64,000 nucleotides of DNA. Origin: Chloroflexi bacterium GWB2_49_20. GTDB taxonomy: Bacteria; Chloroflexota; Anaerolineae; Anaerolineales; Villigracilaceae. Under the pieces are notes generated by a model, which searched no databases, was not told the origin of the DNA, and worked only from the letters and a program-made list of their open reading frames with translations. A program made the position numbers and the translations under genes. Of the stretch, positions 8,127 through 27,690 are shown piece after piece. The number at the start of each line of letters is the position of its first letter. The stretch's first letter is position 1. The DNA lies in contig MGMF01000021.1 of the NCBI GenBank assembly GCA_001796335.1, forward strand, positions 62,001 to 126,000, read 5' to 3'.

Positions 8127-9376
8127 GAACGCGAGCAGTAATCATGGCTGGCGGAGAAGGGTCGCGTTTAAGCGTTTTAACTGCCAAACGCACCAAACCT
8201 GCGGTGCCATTTGCTGGGAAATACCGGATCATAGATTTTGCATTATCCAATTGCGTCAACTCCAATATTTATGATGTGATGGTACTCATGCAATATCGTC
8301 CTCATTCATTGATTGAACACATAGGGGCAGGCGGTCCGTGGGATTTGAACCGTGACTTTTCGGGGGGTATTCGAATGTACACACCATTTAAGGCTCGTTA
8401 TGGTTCGGATTGGTATTTAGGTACAGCAGATGCTGTTCAGCAAAACTTTGCATTTATAAAACAAACCAAACCTGATTATATTCTGATCCTTTCAGGTGAT
8501 CATATCTATGCGATGGATTATGATCCACTCATTACTTTTCATAGGGACCATGAAGCAGATTTGACCATGGCAACCATACACGTTCCGCCGCATGATGCAT
8601 CCAGGTATGGAATTGTAGGCGTGGACGATGACTACAAAGTCACTTCTTTTGTGGAAAAACCCAAAAATCCACCAACTGATCTGGCGAATATGGGTGTGTA
8701 CCTGTTCAACATGGATACGTTGGATCAATATTTATGGGAAGATCATAAGAATAAAAAAAGCTCGCATGATTTTGGCAAAGATTTGTTGCCAAGATTGGTT
8801 GCAGACGGAAAACGGGTGTATGCTTATCCTTATTCGGGTTATTGGGTGGATGTGGGGACAATCCAATCTTATTGGCAAGCTCATATGGATCTACTGGCGA
8901 ATGAACCTCCATTAAAATTAAATGATCGCTCCTGGGTTATTCACACACGAACAGAAGAACGTCCTCCTGTGCGCATAGCAGCTGGAGCTGTGGTTATGGA
9001 CAGCATGTTGTCAGACGGATGTGTTATTGAGTCGGGTGCAAAGGTTGAGAACAGCGTATTTTCTCCAGGAGTTATCGTGCGGTCTGGAGCAATCGTCAGG
9101 CAATCCATTTTGCTAACGGATGTAATTGTCGATCCGGGGGCTGTAGTGGAACGTGCCATCCTAGATAAACGTGTTCAGGTAGGAGAAAAGGCAAGCGTTG
9201 GGTCATTAGCAGACGAGAGGATCGTTCTGGCAGGAAAAAACAGCCAGATCCCTGCTGGCGCGATTATTCAACCGGGCGCCACCATCGCAAATGATGTTGT
9301 AGTTACTGACTATGCCAACTTAACGATTGGATCCATGGAGATTATTGAAACAAAACGAAAACCTAATGAAATTTGA
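8123..9376 (+). CDS. glgC: Glucose-1-phosphate adenylyltransferase
   Basis: This 417-residue protein makes ADP-glucose from glucose-1-phosphate and ATP, the committed step of glycogen synthesis. The nucleotidyltransferase start is MAGGEGSRL, followed by PFAGKYRIIDFALSNCVNS. It also has LSGDHIYAMDY, the sugar-binding FVEKP and GYWVDVGTIQSYW. The last 140 residues are hexapeptide-type left-handed beta-helix repeats, as expected for the GlgC regulatory domain. A strong ribosome site (AGGAGG) lies about 5 nt before the ATG. It is sandwiched between glgA (4-nt overlap) and malQ (11-nt overlap), a tight three-gene operon. Confidence 0.96.
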   Translation: MRTRAVIMAGGEGSRLSVLTAKRTKPAVPFAGKYRIIDFALSNCVNSNIYDVMVLMQYRPHSLIEHIGAGGPWDLNRDFSGGIRMYTPFKARYGSDWYLGTADAVQQNFAFIKQTKPDYILILSGDHIYAMDYDPLITFHRDHEADLTMATIHVPPHDASRYGIVGVDDDYKVTSFVEKPKNPPTDLANMGVYLFNMDTLDQYLWEDHKNKKSSHDFGKDLLPRLVADGKRVYAYPYSGYWVDVGTIQSYWQAHMDLLANEPPLKLNDRSWVIHTRTEERPPVRIAAGAVVMDSMLSDGCVIESGAKVENSVFSPGVIVRSGAIVRQSILLTDVIVDPGAVVERAILDKRVQVGEKASVGSLADERIVLAGKNSQIPAGAIIQPGATIANDVVVTDYANLTIGSMEIIETKRKPNEI

Positions 9377-10859
9377 GAGGTCGTCGGGTATTCTCTTTCA
9401 TCCAACCAGCCTCCCCGGGAAATACGGGATAGGCGATTTGGGGTCGAGCGCATTTGCTTTAATTGATTTTTTAAAAGAGATAGGTTGTAGTCTCTGGCAA
9501 ATTTTACCGCTTGGTCCTACAGGTTATGGAAATTCCCCTTATCAGTCTTTTTCCGCATTCGCGGGGAATCCTTATCTAATCAGCCCCGACATCTTGTTTC
9601 AAGAAGGGTTATTGCATTCGAATGATCTGGTTGAAGAAACTCGTTTTTCCCAAACGCATGTTGAATATGGGAGAATTATCCCTTGGAAATTAAACTTACT
9701 TGAACGAGCTTTTAATAAATTTTTCGATTCAAATTCATTGTTACGAAATGATTATGACGCTTTTTGTGACGAAAATGTCTATTGGTTGGAAGATTTTGCT
9801 CTCTTCATGGCACAGAAAGAAGCCTTTGGAGGAGGATCTTGGACAAATTGGCCGGAGCCTTTTCGAGTACGAAAACCTGCATTTTTAAACAAAGCCCGAA
9901 AAAATTTGAAACACTCTGTAGAGCGGTATAAGTTTTACCAATTCCTATTTTTCAGGCAATGGATTTCATTAAAATCTTATGCTCACAATTCAGGTATCAA
10001 AATCATAGGTGATATTCCATTATACGTTGCGCACGATAGTGCGGATGTGTGGGCAAATTCTGAATTATTTCTGTTGGACACCAAAGGTCGGCCAACAGTC
10101 GTGGCGGGTGTACCCCCGGATTATTTCTCTCCTACAGGGCAGTTATGGGGAAATCCTATTTATCAGTGGGATGAGCACAGAGCCACAGGGTTTAAGTGGT
10201 GGATTGAGCGTTTAAGATGGACACTTTATTTAGTAGATGTAGTCCGCCTGGACCACTTTCGGGGATTTGCGGGGTATTGGGAAGTGCCAGCTGAAAAATC
10301 CACTGCTGAATATGGAAGATGGGTTCAGGGTCCGGGGATTGAGTTCTTCAGGCAGATGGAGAAAGCCCTGGATAGAGAAGCAGGTTTGCCTTTGGTCGCA
10401 GAAGACCTGGGAGTAATTACCCAAGATGTAATTAAGTTGAGGGATCAATTAAAGTTACCAGGGATGAAAATCCTTCAATTTGCATTTTCAGGTTCGGATA
10501 ATTCCTTTCTCCCGCATCATTATTCTCCAAATTGTGTGGTTTATACAGGTACCCATGATAACGATACAACAACAGGCTGGTTCAATTCAGCCCCTGAACG
10601 AGAGAGATTATTTGCCAAAGATTATTTAGGCGTTGATGGCAGTGACATGGCGTGGGATTTAATTCGCGCTGGTTGGGCTTCAGTCGCTGTTTATGCACTT
10701 GCCCCTATGCAAGATTTCCTAAAACTTGATTCTAAAGCACGAATGAATTATCCAAGTCGAATTGGGGGGAATTGGGAATGGCGTATGTCTGAACATTACA
10801 AGGATGACGGTTTGATTGAAAGATTGAAAAAATATAATGTTTTATATGGACGAAGTTAG
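9366..10859 (+). CDS. malQ: 4-alpha-glucanotransferase (amylomaltase)
   Basis: This is a GH77 enzyme that disproportionates maltooligosaccharides and takes part in glycogen turnover. It begins SSGILFHPTSLPGKYGIGDLG, followed by LPLGPTGYGNSPYQSFSAFAGNPYLI, both hallmarks of MalQ. The catalytic blocks VVRLDHFRGF (nucleophile Asp), VAEDLGVI (acid/base Glu) and YTGTHDNDT (third Asp) are all present. I chose the ATG at 9366 (497 residues), inside the glgC stop region, rather than the in-frame ATG at 9327, because the extra 13 residues are glgC sequence in another frame. No strong ribosome site is seen, so translation is probably coupled to glgC. Confidence 0.95.
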   Translation: MKFERSSGILFHPTSLPGKYGIGDLGSSAFALIDFLKEIGCSLWQILPLGPTGYGNSPYQSFSAFAGNPYLISPDILFQEGLLHSNDLVEETRFSQTHVEYGRIIPWKLNLLERAFNKFFDSNSLLRNDYDAFCDENVYWLEDFALFMAQKEAFGGGSWTNWPEPFRVRKPAFLNKARKNLKHSVERYKFYQFLFFRQWISLKSYAHNSGIKIIGDIPLYVAHDSADVWANSELFLLDTKGRPTVVAGVPPDYFSPTGQLWGNPIYQWDEHRATGFKWWIERLRWTLYLVDVVRLDHFRGFAGYWEVPAEKSTAEYGRWVQGPGIEFFRQMEKALDREAGLPLVAEDLGVITQDVIKLRDQLKLPGMKILQFAFSGSDNSFLPHHYSPNCVVYTGTHDNDTTTGWFNSAPERERLFAKDYLGVDGSDMAWDLIRAGWASVAVYALAPMQDFLKLDSKARMNYPSRIGGNWEWRMSEHYKDDGLIERLKKYNVLYGRS

Positions 10860-23402: not shown

Positions 23403-24545
23403 TTATGGAGTTGGTGATGAGACGGGAGCTGCCCCGCTCCAGATAAAGATGCGCAGTTGGCTTGGGGTGCCAGCCTGACTCCATGTTGTTTTGCCCTGAT
23501 CATCCGTATCTGCTTGCCGGACAGTGACAACCTGCCATGTCATTGCGTGAGGCTGGTTATCTTGAGGACGGAAGGACACGGGAACAATGAATTTTGTATC
23601 CGTTACATATTCGCTCAGCTTTCTGCCCAAACCCTCAGTTATATCTTCTACTATGACAAGGTATGCCTCATCACTGCGCAGATTACCTATGGAAGCCCAT
23701 TGCAACGTGACAACGTCATTTGCCAGATTGAACGCAGTTCCGTTGGCGGGTAGTAATAAATTGGGAGCCGGGTAAGGGGGTGGAAGCGTTGGGGTCGGAG
23801 ATGGACCTGGTGTTGCATCGCGCATGCATAACGGAATATCGAGAGGTTGGTTCAAATAAACATTATCCGTGCTTAAGCCATTCCATTGCTTGATGGCATC
23901 CATTGAAACCCCATAATTCAATGAAATTCTACTTAGAGTGTCATTAGATTGAACTGTGATGGTGACTATCTGGCAGGCAGCGCGGGTGGCATCTGCAGAC
24001 ACCAAAGTAGCGGATGCAACCGGCAATGGAGTTGGGGTAGGTTGAGGAATTAAAAGTTTTTGACCGACTACCAGGTCTGTACAAGTTGCTGAAAGATTGT
24101 TAAGAAGAATGATGGATTGTACGGAAACATCAAAAGCAACGGCGATTGAATAGCAGTAGTCGTTAGCTTTAACTGTATACTCTAGCGGTGCGAGCAAAGT
24201 AGGGGTCGGTGTCAGGCTTGGGATAGGCGTTTCTGTTGGAGTTGGAGTTACTGTAGGAGTGTTGGTGGTAGTTGAGATGGGAGTGGGATTGACCAACCTG
24301 TTGCCAGCATTTAATGCAAAATATACTGTCCCAGCTCCTACTGCCAGAATGAGTGCCAACAAGCCGATAGCAATTGGAAGGCTGATTCTAACAACAGGCA
24401 TGCGGCTGCCTTGAATTGATTTTTGTTGGCGTTTTTCTATAGTGAAATCGCTACCGCAAACCAGACAGCGAGTGGCATTTTCGGCCAGTTGGGTGCCACA
24501 TGTTGGGCACAATTTTGTTTTTTTAGTTGAAGTAGAAGGATTCAT
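23403..24545 (-). CDS. Zinc-ribbon/LysM cell-envelope protein
   Basis: This 380-residue protein has, in order, a zinc ribbon CPTCGTQ...CLVCGSD (residues about 13-33), one transmembrane helix (about 53-78), a Thr/Pro-rich linker, two LysM domains (about 125-167 and 193-238) and a C-terminal beta-rich domain of about 110 residues. The topology should be a cytosolic ribbon and external LysM domains that bind peptidoglycan-like glycans. The LysM blocks are YTVKANDYCYSIAVAFDVS and ITVQSNDTLSRISLNYGVS. A TATAAT box 10 nt before the ATG and no ribosome site suggest a leaderless mRNA. The exact role is unknown. Confidence 0.85.
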   Translation of the reverse strand: MNPSTSTKKTKLCPTCGTQLAENATRCLVCGSDFTIEKRQQKSIQGSRMPVVRISLPIAIGLLALILAVGAGTVYFALNAGNRLVNPTPISTTTNTPTVTPTPTETPIPSLTPTPTLLAPLEYTVKANDYCYSIAVAFDVSVQSIILLNNLSATCTDLVVGQKLLIPQPTPTPLPVASATLVSADATRAACQIVTITVQSNDTLSRISLNYGVSMDAIKQWNGLSTDNVYLNQPLDIPLCMRDATPGPSPTPTLPPPYPAPNLLLPANGTAFNLANDVVTLQWASIGNLRSDEAYLVIVEDITEGLGRKLSEYVTDTKFIVPVSFRPQDNQPHAMTWQVVTVRQADTDDQGKTTWSQAGTPSQLRIFIWSGAAPVSSPTP

Positions 24546-24656: not shown

Positions 24657-25565
24657 ATGGAAAAAAATTATAGTCTTTACAAACAAATGTTGCTTATTCG
24701 TAGATTTGAGGAGCGTTTGCTTGAGGAATTTTCTTCTGGAAAACTTGCAGGTACAACACATGCCTATATAGGGCAGGAAGCCAATGCAGTCGGGATTTTT
24801 GATGTATTGCATAAAGATGATATTATTTTTAGCAATCACCGTTGCCATGGTCATTACCTTGCATATGGAGGGGATCCATATTTATTGGCAGCGGAAGTTA
24901 TGGGTAAATCAACAGGGCTGGTGGGCGGTAGAGGGGGAAGCCAGCATATTCATTTGCGAAATTTTTATTCAAACGGAATTCAAGGTGGGATAGTACCCAT
25001 AGCCACCGGAATGGCTCTGGCAGAAAAATATATTAAGAGCAAACGAATTACTTTGGTTTTCTTAGGCGATGGCACATTGGGACAGGGAATCATATATGAA
25101 AGTTTTAATTTCGCTTCTTTATGGAATATTCCCGTTTTATTTGTAGTTGAAAATAACCGATATGCACAAACCACCCCAATTGAAATTGCAGTGGCAGGGA
25201 ATATCCCGGATCGATTTAAAGCATTCGGGATTAATACTTGGGAATGTAATTCAACGGATGTAGTAAAAATTCGCGAAGATTCGGAGCAAGCGGTGAATTT
25301 TGTGCGAAGTAATATGCAACCTGCTGGTTTGATCCTGCAAACTTATCGATTTGCAGCCCACTCAAAGGGTGATGATTTCCGGAAACCTGAAGAAATAGCC
25401 AGTAATAAGAAATCTGATCCCTTGTTAATTCACGGAAACCGTTTGGAGAAAACAGACCGTGAAATGGCCGAGAGTGAAATAACTTGGATAATAAATGAAG
25501 CTTTTTCACGAGCAGATCAGGATCCGTATCCTGGTTCCAACAATTTACCTCCAATTTTATTATGA
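24657..25565 (+). CDS. 2-oxoacid dehydrogenase-type E1 alpha subunit
   Basis: This 302-residue thiamine-diphosphate subunit of the PDH/acetoin dehydrogenase class begins RRFEERLLEEFSSGKLAG. It shows IGQEANAVGIF, SNHRCHGHYLAYGGD (active-site His loop) and GGRGGSQHIH. The ThDP motif GDGTLGQG...ENNRYA spans residues 137-170. It decarboxylates a 2-oxoacid and, with a lipoyl carrier, makes an acyl-lipoate. It is short for the family, with a reduced C-terminus. The beta subunit follows with a 4-nt overlap. The ATG is 6 nt after a TATAAT box (24645-24650), without a ribosome site. No E3 gene and no ordinary E2 are encoded nearby. Confidence 0.9.
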   Translation: MEKNYSLYKQMLLIRRFEERLLEEFSSGKLAGTTHAYIGQEANAVGIFDVLHKDDIIFSNHRCHGHYLAYGGDPYLLAAEVMGKSTGLVGGRGGSQHIHLRNFYSNGIQGGIVPIATGMALAEKYIKSKRITLVFLGDGTLGQGIIYESFNFASLWNIPVLFVVENNRYAQTTPIEIAVAGNIPDRFKAFGINTWECNSTDVVKIREDSEQAVNFVRSNMQPAGLILQTYRFAAHSKGDDFRKPEEIASNKKSDPLLIHGNRLEKTDREMAESEITWIINEAFSRADQDPYPGSNNLPPILL

Positions 25566-26557
25566 CAACTGTATTGCAACATCTAACTGATGGATTAACT
25601 CGTTCAATGGAAGGCGATAAACGCGTTTTTCTTCTTGGAGAAGATCTCCTTGATCCTTATGGAGGAGCTTTCAAGGTTACACGTGGAATAAGCACACGTT
25701 TTCCTGAACGAGTACTAACGACGCCAATTTCGGAAGCTGCCATCGTTGGTATTGCAACCGGGATGGCGATGCGTGGTCTTCGACCCGTTGTGGAAATCAT
25801 GTTTGGCGATTTTGTGACCCTGATAATGGATCAGGTCATTAATCACGCATCCAAGTTTAGATGGGTTTATAACAATAATGTGTCTGTGCCTATTGTAGTG
25901 CGAACTCCGATGGGTGGCAGACGTGGGTATGGCCCAACACACAGCCAATCATTGGAAAAATTGTTCCTGGGTATCCCAGGTGTGAGAGTACTTGCGCCAA
26001 ATACAATCGGTGATCCTGCCTTATTGCTTCAGAATGCAATAGCAGACGATGATCCGGTAGTATTCATCGAGCATAAATTGCTTTATGCCTGCCATCGGCT
26101 TGAAATCGGAAAAGGGGATCTGGTCGATGGGGAGGTAGAGCAATTTGGCGAGAGATACCCTACCTATAATATACGGTTTTCTTCCAAGCCGCAAATTTCA
26201 ATTGCCACATATGGCTACAATTTTGAAATTGTCAGAAAGGTTGCGCTTGAAGTTTTGTATGAGCGCGAAATATTTACGGAGATAATCGTGTTCTCCCAAT
26301 TAAGTCCATTTAATTTGATGCCATTAGCCGAATCGCTTTCAAAATCACACCATTTACTTACAGTTGAAGAGGGAAGCTCAAACCTCGGTTGGGGTTCTGA
26401 AATTGCAGCCCGAATTGCTGAAAGTGATTTAAATAATGTAAAAATAAGGCGAGTGGGAGCGTTGGATTTTCCCATTGCGAATACGAAAACTTTGGAAGAT
26501 CTGATTTTGCCATCCCAATCAGTAATAAAAAAAGCGATTTATGATTTAATGGAATAA
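25562..26557 (+). CDS. 2-oxoacid dehydrogenase-type E1 beta subunit
   Basis: This 331-residue partner of the preceding subunit has FLLGEDLLDPYGGAFKVT, TTPISEAAIVGIATGMAMRG (with the ThDP-activating Glu), VVRTPMGGRRGYGPTHSQSLE and the C-terminal transketolase domain ending RVGALDFPIANTKTLEDLILP. These are the diagnostic blocks of PdhB/AcoB/BkdB. The ATGA overlap with the alpha gene fits equimolar synthesis of a heterotetramer. The third gene of the cassette starts 35 nt later and supplies a lipoyl domain. The specific oxoacid (pyruvate, acetoin or a branched-chain acid) cannot be read from sequence. Confidence 0.92.
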   Translation: MTTVLQHLTDGLTRSMEGDKRVFLLGEDLLDPYGGAFKVTRGISTRFPERVLTTPISEAAIVGIATGMAMRGLRPVVEIMFGDFVTLIMDQVINHASKFRWVYNNNVSVPIVVRTPMGGRRGYGPTHSQSLEKLFLGIPGVRVLAPNTIGDPALLLQNAIADDDPVVFIEHKLLYACHRLEIGKGDLVDGEVEQFGERYPTYNIRFSSKPQISIATYGYNFEIVRKVALEVLYEREIFTEIIVFSQLSPFNLMPLAESLSKSHHLLTVEEGSSNLGWGSEIAARIAESDLNNVKIRRVGALDFPIANTKTLEDLILPSQSVIKKAIYDLME

Positions 26558-26592
26558 CGATATGCTGGCTGAAGAAAAAAATTAGAGGAAAA

Positions 26593-27690
26593 ATGGTTGT
26601 TACTGATGTGCTCGTACCGTTACTTAATGCAAATGAACCTGAAGCTCGCCTGGTTGGCATTCATGTTGTAGATGGGCAACCTGTTAATGTAGGGGATATT
26701 CTTTTTTCGTTGGAAACAACCAAGGCAACCGCAGATATAGTGTCACCAGCTTCAGGGTTTGTTCGCCTGCAAGCATCCAAAGAGGATAATGTTTCTGTAG
26801 GGGACCTATTGGCTGTGATTACAGAAATCCAAGATGAGTTGATTATTAGAGAATCAGAAAATAGGAAACAAAAAAATATTGATTCATTGAGAATCACACA
26901 GCCTGCGCTGAACTTGGCGTCTCAATTTGGTGTGAACCTAGACAGCCTGACAACAGATCAGCTTGTCACTGAGTCTATGATACGCGAAATGGTTAAAGAG
27001 CTCCATGAGGAACTACCCGAATCCCTGGTAGTTGAGCCGGAAAAATCAATCTTGATCTATGGTGGTGGGGGGCATGCAAAATCAGTTATTGATATGGTGA
27101 AATCAATAGGATTTTATAATATTGTAGGCATAATTGATGATAATATTCCAGCGCAAACAAACATCATGGGAATACCTGTTTTAGGGACCCGCAATATCCT
27201 GACGAAATTGCGAGAAAAAGGTGTAGAGAAGGCAGCCAATGGGGTAGGTGGAATTCTTGATATTAAGATACGGATAAAATTATTTGAGTTGCTTGAAAGC
27301 GAGGGCTTTTCCTTGCCAAAATTGATCCACCCTCGTGCAACTGTAGAAACGAGCGCCATGGTATGTGAAGGCGTGCAGGTGTTTGCAAATGCGTATATTG
27401 GATCTGAAACCATTTTACAACAACGTTGTATGGTTAATACGAGTGCAGTTGTCTCGCATGACTGTGTTATCGGAGCATACAGCCACATTGCTCCTGGAGC
27501 CATGCTGGCGGGTCACGTACAAGTTGGGGAAGGAAGCCTGGTCGGTATGGGCGTAACGACCGCTATCGGTATAAAAATTGGGAACAATGTGAGAATCGGA
27601 AACGGTGCTATTATTTATTCAGATATCCCGGCTAAAACCATCATCCCTTCCGGAACGATATGGGCTGGGAAGGGAAAGTCCCAAGCTTAA
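26593..27690 (+). CDS. Lipoyl domain + E1/E3-binding domain + NeuD/PglD-type acyltransferase fusion
   Basis: This 365-residue protein has three modules. Residues 4-80 are a lipoyl domain; LETTKATADI supplies the lipoyl-lysine, Lys44. Residues about 100-135 (ITQPALNLASQFGVNLDSL...ESMIREMV) match the peripheral-subunit-binding domain of E2 proteins. Residues 151-365 are a NeuD/PglD acyltransferase: a Rossmann-like start ILIYGGGGHAKSVID, then left-handed beta-helix repeats with VVSHDCVIGAYSHIAPGA, in which His289 fits the catalytic His of PglD. The usual E2 catalytic domain is absent. With E1 alpha and beta upstream, it may take an acyl group from lipoate for transfer to a sugar or amine. A GAGG site precedes the ATG. 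The domain assignment is firm; the chemistry is inferred. Confidence 0.85.
   Translation: MVVTDVLVPLLNANEPEARLVGIHVVDGQPVNVGDILFSLETTKATADIVSPASGFVRLQASKEDNVSVGDLLAVITEIQDELIIRESENRKQKNIDSLRITQPALNLASQFGVNLDSLTTDQLVTESMIREMVKELHEELPESLVVEPEKSILIYGGGGHAKSVIDMVKSIGFYNIVGIIDDNIPAQTNIMGIPVLGTRNILTKLREKGVEKAANGVGGILDIKIRIKLFELLESEGFSLPKLIHPRATVETSAMVCEGVQVFANAYIGSETILQQRCMVNTSAVVSHDCVIGAYSHIAPGAMLAGHVQVGEGSLVGMGVTTAIGIKIGNNVRIGNGAIIYSDIPAKTIIPSGTIWAGKGKSQA

Follow-up and report, generated by a model that had tools for sequence, protein, structure and literature searches.

A 64,000-nucleotide stretch of DNA from Chloroflexi bacterium GWB2_49_20 (GCA_001796335.1, contig MGMF01000021.1, positions 62,001–126,000 of the forward strand; hereafter ‘the window’, in whose coordinates all positions are given) carries on its plus strand, at 24657–27690, three consecutive genes with open, stop-free frames for E1 alpha and E1 beta of a 2-oxoacid dehydrogenase and for a 365-residue fusion protein. 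In the fusion, a lipoyl domain and a peripheral subunit-binding domain (PSBD) precede an acyltransferase of the NeuD type. In textbook 2-oxoacid dehydrogenase complexes, the last component is a CAT-like E2, which produces acyl-coenzyme A (acyl-CoA). We judge it probable, at roughly 70%, that in this unit, otherwise a 2-oxoacid dehydrogenase, a nucleotide-sugar N-acyltransferase has taken the place of the E2 acyltransferase core and would acylate an amino sugar; the judgement rests on domain content, conservation and gene context. What is new is an unrelated sugar acyltransferase in the E2 position; diversion of pyruvate dehydrogenase (PDH)-like machinery from CoA has been proposed before, for pepteridine. 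The fusion is widespread in the order Anaerolineales, and a limited search of the open-access literature found no description of a lipoyl–PSBD–NeuD composition with E1.

A lipoyl domain, a PSBD and a sugar acyltransferase in one protein

The sequence-only reading of this DNA had named E1 alpha, E1 beta and a fusion in which a lipoyl domain (Lys44) is joined to a NeuD-type acyltransferase (His289) in place of the E2 catalytic domain, and this is confirmed by Pfam, NCBIfam and a homologue alignment (Table 1). The fusion exceeds the Pfam cut-offs for Biotin_lipoyl (34 against 22.1 bits, residues 18–76), PglD_N (52 against 23.4, residues 153–232) and Hexapep (48.6 against 27) and passes the NCBIfam NeuD profile TIGR03570 (175.3 against 160.8 bits); the E2 catalytic domain PF00198 gives no Pfam match in it at E ≤ 1. 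Across 28 homologues, Pfam matches fall into 18 families (E ≤ 0.1), and PF00198 is none of these, so the loss of an E2 domain in this strain only, which had been raised as a possible objection, does not explain the architecture. The alignment comprises the window and 27 full-length loci at 49–63% identity, the short, partial or NeuD-only loci L031, L034 and L037–L041 being excluded; ETTKA (with Lys44), SHDC (with His289) and GGHAK are invariant in it. Strain-specific decay or a chance fusion is ruled out by these relatives and by the two invariant residues.

Table 1 Features of the three-gene unit in window coordinates
Feature	Position	Strand	Evidence
E1 alpha (thiamin-diphosphate 2-oxoacid dehydrogenase alpha subunit)	24657..25565	+	Pfam E1_dh, 190 bits
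E1 beta	25562..26557	+	Pfam Transket_pyr and Transketolase_C; 4-base overlap with the end of E1 alpha
Lipoyl–PSBD–NeuD-type acyltransferase fusion, 365 residues	26593..27690	+	Pfam, NCBIfam, homologue alignment
Lipoyl domain, residues ~1–80	26593..26832	+	Pfam Biotin_lipoyl; 28/28 members match
Lys44 of ETTKA, expected lipoyl attachment	26722..26724	+	Lys in 28/28 aligned homologues and in 50/50 aligned fusions of the clade
PSBD, residues ~100–137	26890..27003	+	Profile, shuffle and predicted-fold tests; loop ~3 residues shorter than in canonical PSBDs
PglD_N (Rossmann) sugar-nucleotide-binding domain	27043..27312	+	Pfam; His161, Asp182 and Asp183 conserved
Left-handed beta-helix acyltransferase domain	27313..27672	+	AlphaFold model; best PDB matches PerB, PglB-C, VioB, PglD
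His289, putative catalytic His (= PerB His141, PglD His125)	27457..27459	+	His in 28/28 homologues and 49/50 fusions; Gln in L167

The AlphaFold monomer model of the fusion (mean pLDDT 87.8, pTM 0.65; best of five, which range from pLDDT 70.8 to 87.8) has a beta-rich N-terminal domain, two helices (103–112 and 127–137), an alpha/beta domain and a long series of short strands. Its top structural relative is the GDP-perosamine N-acetyltransferase PerB (Z 31, 35% identity), followed by PglB-C, VioB and PglD. PerB His141 aligns with His289, and two deposited PerB mutants, H141N and H141A, alter exactly that column. By eye, His161, Asp182 and Asp183 pair with PglD His15, Asp35 and Asp36, residues that are given, with the catalytic His125 and the function of PglD, in excerpts of PMC8040287; Asp182 and Asp183 are kept in 50/50 fusions.

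The segment between the lipoyl and PglD_N domains is a shortened PSBD, a conclusion backed by three tests. Pfam E3_binding is found in 1 of 28 members (E 0.092) and is not listed for the other 27 at E ≤ 0.1. In profile–profile comparison with four canonical Chloroflexota PSBDs, residues 97–140 score 25.2, against a maximum of 16.0 in 200 column shuffles and of 10.0 for stretches of the fusion lying clear of the segment's core (the four come from seven loci with canonical E2s, where a motif pattern gave no PSBD in L002, L064 and L065). When a 54-column profile of the segment is searched against 177,635 distinct PDB sequences, PSBDs take ranks 1–3 (E 8e-4, 9e-4 and 0.11), with about three residues absent from the inter-helix loop of the segment. 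Folded separately (predicted, pLDDT 75), the segment finds PSBD structures at ranks 1–4, with weak E of 0.3–0.96. The earlier assignment of the segment to an E1/E3-binding domain is therefore favoured by profile, shuffle and predicted fold.

Within the PSBD, Arg100, Pro104 and Ala105 are, like Lys44, conserved in 50/50 fusions. Such conservation would be needless if E1 performed carbon–carbon chemistry on a keto sugar beside a vestigial lipoyl domain, a scheme that we find scarcely credible even though thiamin enzymes and E1-like proteins do act in branched-sugar pathways.

Distribution of the fusion and its association with E1

The first homologue search found 34 loci of the kind seen in the window (hereafter, window-type loci), and 33 belong to records whose titles name some form of Chloroflexi or Anaerolineae. 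At E ≤ 1e-55, matches occur in 130 of the 301 genomes sampled from the order; by a hand count of the matched ranges, 102 of these span lipoyl to NeuD, 3 are cut off (G324, G450, G510) and the other 25 reach little or nothing beyond NeuD. Across the phylum, 12 of 301 genomes match at E ≤ 1e-40, 7 of which belong to this order.

E1 beta lies upstream on the same strand at 29/29 analysed window-type loci and E1 alpha at 28/29, L030 being without it. These neighbourhood counts exclude L012 (too near a contig end), L041 (NeuD-only), L031, and L034 and L037, which do carry E1 alpha and E1 beta. At 22 further Anaerolineales fusion loci, E1 beta is found in 21, again upstream on the same strand, and E1 alpha in 20; L167 is without both, and L150 has no E1 alpha on its contig. 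Overall, E1 beta is upstream in 50/51 fusion loci, a set that leaves out L059 (the same place as L015) and L055 (from a second lineage, described below). L040 was scored without E1 in the 10-kb neighbour count since its fusion fragment is too short; both E1 genes are present there. At NeuD-only loci, E1 alpha and E1 beta occur in 0/23, over stretches of 9–20 kb. The set of 20 fusion loci of other families, scored for sugar genes below, and a set of 20 NeuD-only loci were hand-chosen among the matching genomes of the order for family spread, not at random.

The E1 proteins are themselves tied to the fusion. In 13 hand-picked genomes, an E1 beta of at least 51% identity occurs only in the four that have the fusion (G000, G072, G168, G200), and the E1 beta paralogues of genomes with the NeuD part only (G104, G176, G216) are at most 39% identical. 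In a tree, the E1 betas of fusion loci (28 rows) group as a single clade (SH-aLRT 100), apart from the other E1 betas sampled; L081, from genome G335, is labelled canonical in that tree but is a partner of the second lineage. One genus (g10: L136, L143, L056; genomes G216, G672, G693) has a NeuD protein that keeps a lipoyl-like domain, with Thr, Arg or His at the lysine position and no PSBD, and E1 is absent beside the gene. The flanks in G216 (epimerase, bactofilin) are the same as in G168 and G200, which hold the full set. A lack of the lysine and the PSBD where E1 is absent is as expected if both serve E1, and the lipoyl-like domains of this genus are possibly decaying or re-used.

The solved chain closest to E1 alpha is human PDH E1 alpha (E 1e-43). 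We considered assigning the substrate from this likeness, the nearest solved E1 alpha being of PDH and not of branched-chain 2-oxoacid dehydrogenase (BCKDH), yet the protein reaches only 263.6 bits on the PDH equivalog, far under the cut-off of 393.85, and so no E1 substrate is named. The window genome contains lipA and a single E3 over the cut-off; none is seen within the window, and the one found is on another contig (C25), as the earlier suggestion of a distant E3 had it. The genome also encodes four PF00198 E2s, each at most about 1.1 kb from an E1 beta, so the fusion unit is not its sole lipoyl complex.

Proposed acyl acceptor and acyl donor

From the chemistry of these families, E1 alpha/beta would decarboxylate a 2-oxoacid and reductively acylate the lipoyl group on Lys44. 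The PSBD would tether E1, or E1 together with the shared E3, to a presumably trimeric NeuD core, where Asp182 and Asp183 would hold a sugar nucleotide and His289, as base, would assist transfer of the acyl group to its amino group. Gene context in related families points to a DegT aminotransferase as the source of the acceptor, which would probably be a UDP-4-amino sugar, and to a PglC-like phosphoglycosyltransferase that would then load the sugar onto a lipid carrier, while the E3 of the genome would reoxidise the dihydrolipoyl arm.

This context was scored as orthologues of at least 50% identity within 10 kb. Among the 20 other-family fusion loci, a PglC-type phosphoglycosyltransferase is present in 12, always upstream on the same strand, and a DegT/DnrJ/EryC1 aminotransferase in 10, of which 9 lie downstream on the same strand; 15/20 have one or the other. 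The short sugar transferase is a Pfam Bac_transf protein (as judged on its window-genome orthologue), and the nearest curated model for the aminotransferase is PseC, under its cut-off. Five loci (L149, L157, L160, L161, L164) have the order phosphoglycosyltransferase, E1 alpha, E1 beta, fusion, aminotransferase. In three others (L129, L132, L133), E1, lipoyl domain and PSBD are missing but the order is otherwise kept (phosphoglycosyltransferase, NeuD, aminotransferase), and one of the two sugar genes is present at 17/23 NeuD-only loci. Phosphoglycosyltransferase, NeuD protein and aminotransferase correspond in role to PglC, PglD and PglE of the bacillosamine pathway.

Several observations weigh against our interpretation. 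The sugar amine that the sequence-only reading had proposed as acceptor is supported by these operons in other families but not at the window-type loci, where only 1/29 (L039) has a sugar neighbour, many flanks ending at contig ends; L013 has distant sugar-gene matches, at 30–32% identity. In the window genome, the DegT orthologue (65%) is on contig C1 and the short phosphoglycosyltransferase (69%) on contig C22, both off the window's contig. Genome G303 has the fusion and no DegT match, and in G028 and G064, which have DegT and phosphoglycosyltransferase orthologues, no NeuD of the fusion subfamily was found. The fusion of L167 (9807–10991) has an intact lipoyl lysine with Gln for the catalytic His and no E1 within the 12.7 kb examined, in a genome listed as 7% contaminated; L031 has neither E1 alpha nor E1 beta in 4.4 kb upstream. 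Finally, NeuD-only relatives keep the entire acyltransferase and can thus presumably work without lipoate.

Contig C1 of the window genome holds a block of epimerase, DNA glycosylase, enoyl reductase, bactofilin and DegT (DNA glycosylase and enoyl reductase named by eye). A similar block at L159 has E1 alpha, E1 beta and the fusion before bactofilin, as do L057, L058 and L166, there without DegT. From these blocks, the unit in the window has most likely been relocated out of sugar-gene surroundings, and the same probably applies to its family, with the sugar genes remaining elsewhere in the genome.

If the sugar genes were instead bystanders, the unit could be an energy-metabolism complex in disguise, its beta-helix trimer replacing the E2 core and making acyl-CoA. 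The 28/29 window-type loci without the tested sugar genes near the unit would fit, as would malate dehydrogenase-like and citrate synthase-like genes near 13 of the 52 fusion loci compared (named by eye; the citrate synthase of the window was identified by Pfam). We nevertheless consider this very improbable, given the conserved sugar-nucleotide site, the same-strand phosphoglycosyltransferase and DegT neighbours in other families and the four PF00198 E2s that already stand beside E1 betas in the window genome.

With N-acylation of an amino sugar as the preferred reading, the immediate donor is the less certain part. We tentatively propose, at odds somewhat short of even, that the lipoyl arm is a direct, CoA-free donor to the nucleotide sugar, such that one complex would couple 2-oxoacid decarboxylation to N-acylation of a surface amino sugar; lipoate would then do what acyl carrier protein does for LpxD, and the arrangement would have arisen twice in Chloroflexota. 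In that case the acyl group may be absent from the CoA pool. An unlikely but more conventional route is that the acyl group leaves first as acyl-CoA, made by the beta-helix domain or a canonical E2, and that the sugar is acylated from CoA as by an ordinary NeuD, with the fusion only raising local acyl-CoA. In favour of this route, close solved relatives were crystallised with CoA or acetyl-CoA (according to entry titles), the NeuD-only members of the subfamily presumably use acetyl-CoA, and the genome has its four PF00198 E2s. Beta-helix relatives, however, also accept acyl groups from a carrier arm: some structural matches have entry titles that name acyl carrier protein and lipid A production, and are, we take it, LpxD. 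Were the enzyme supplied from ordinary CoA pools, one would also not expect an E1 beta clade tied to the fusion, nor E1, PSBD and lysine to be absent together elsewhere.

Two possible indicators of the donor were examined and dropped. The C-terminal GVPA(K/R), the usual motif of NeuD-type enzymes, is missing from the fusion, but also from its NeuD-only sisters, and its absence was abandoned as a sign of lost CoA binding. A scan over every NeuD position selected residues 264, 283 and 316, which are F, T and L in all 50 fusions and L/M, A/N/V/S and Q in the 23 NeuD-only proteins. As a donor-pocket argument this clean split fails: three changes suffice on the tree, only one of them is forced by well-supported branches, and a sign test is powerless. 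T283 is also found in PerB, PglB-C and VioB, so that at this position the NeuD-only group is the changed one.

If the complex does end in such an unrelated sugar enzyme, a lipoyl arm can act as acyl carrier for glycan synthesis and an Anaerolineales surface sugar becomes predictable and testable, with the NeuD-only sisters and the lysine-less forms as natural controls.

A second lineage, known systems and neighbouring genes

In G158, a more distant genome of the same phylum, genes that share one strand encode a sugar transferase, a Gfo/Idh oxidoreductase (closest to the UDP-GlcNAc 3-dehydrogenase model, under cut-off), a lipoyl–NeuD protein, E1 alpha, E1 beta, DegT, Wzz, O-antigen ligase and a glycosyltransferase. 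Its lipoyl–NeuD protein is 27.5% identical to the window's fusion and keeps the lysine and the His; no PSBD is recognisable in it. In G335, the oxidoreductase and lipoyl–NeuD are on one contig, and E1 alpha, E1 beta and DegT on another. The E1 beta and NeuD domains of this lineage branch outside the Anaerolineales clades, on long branches, which makes a separate origin of the lipoyl–NeuD and E1 pairing likely. Of 334 matching plasmid records, none reaches 80% coverage of the second-lineage protein at a single site. Elsewhere in G158 (L080:2419–8031), about 11–17 kb from the lipoyl–NeuD gene, are two large proteins with N-termini that by eye resemble asparagine synthase.

Compared with known systems, the unit shares with the PDH, BCKDH and 2-oxoglutarate dehydrogenase (OGDH) complexes E1 alpha/beta, a lipoyl domain with its lysine, a PSBD and an E3 in the genome, and differs in having a left-handed beta-helix sugar acyltransferase where they have a CAT-like E2 domain. 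With NeuD, PglD, PerB and VioB it has in common the PglD_N and beta-helix domains, the catalytic His, the Asp-Asp pair and, in related families, neighbours in the PglC and PglE roles; unlike them, it carries its own lipoyl domain and PSBD and is encoded with E1. LpxA and LpxD are likewise beta-helix enzymes to which a protein-bound arm delivers the acyl group, but they use a separate acyl carrier protein and fatty acyl groups, and the fusion falls far under their cut-offs (LpxD-type 53.5 against 207 bits, LpxA-type 43.1 against 226). The nearest precedent in concept is the pepteridine cluster, for which excerpts of PMC5384830 describe a PDH-like E1 with an E2–non-ribosomal peptide synthetase fusion, a proposal that the E1/E2 pair serves a biosynthetic carrier instead of CoA, and an E3 from elsewhere; they also cite a like proposal for naphthyridinomycin. 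On that account, the two systems resemble each other in the proposed diversion of acyl groups from CoA to biosynthetic acylation and in a cluster without E3, and differ in that the proposal there has an E2-like subunit priming a carrier protein, whereas a sugar enzyme without an E2 catalytic domain is found here. Thiolation or condensation domains of the pepteridine type are not among the Pfam matches of the fusion at E ≤ 1.

Two kinds of neighbouring gene were also observed. At L018, a DUF4013 membrane-protein gene (9242–9928) lies antisense between the E1 beta and fusion genes, and its cluster has members in 15 of the 52 fusion loci compared (L018 and 14 more); in the window, 36 bases separate E1 beta from the fusion gene and leave no space for such a gene. 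Directly upstream of E1 alpha in the window, and divergent from it, is a gene for a LysM protein (23403–24545, minus strand) with a zinc ribbon just under the Pfam cut-off, and neighbours of similar appearance recur, as judged by eye, at many window-type loci.

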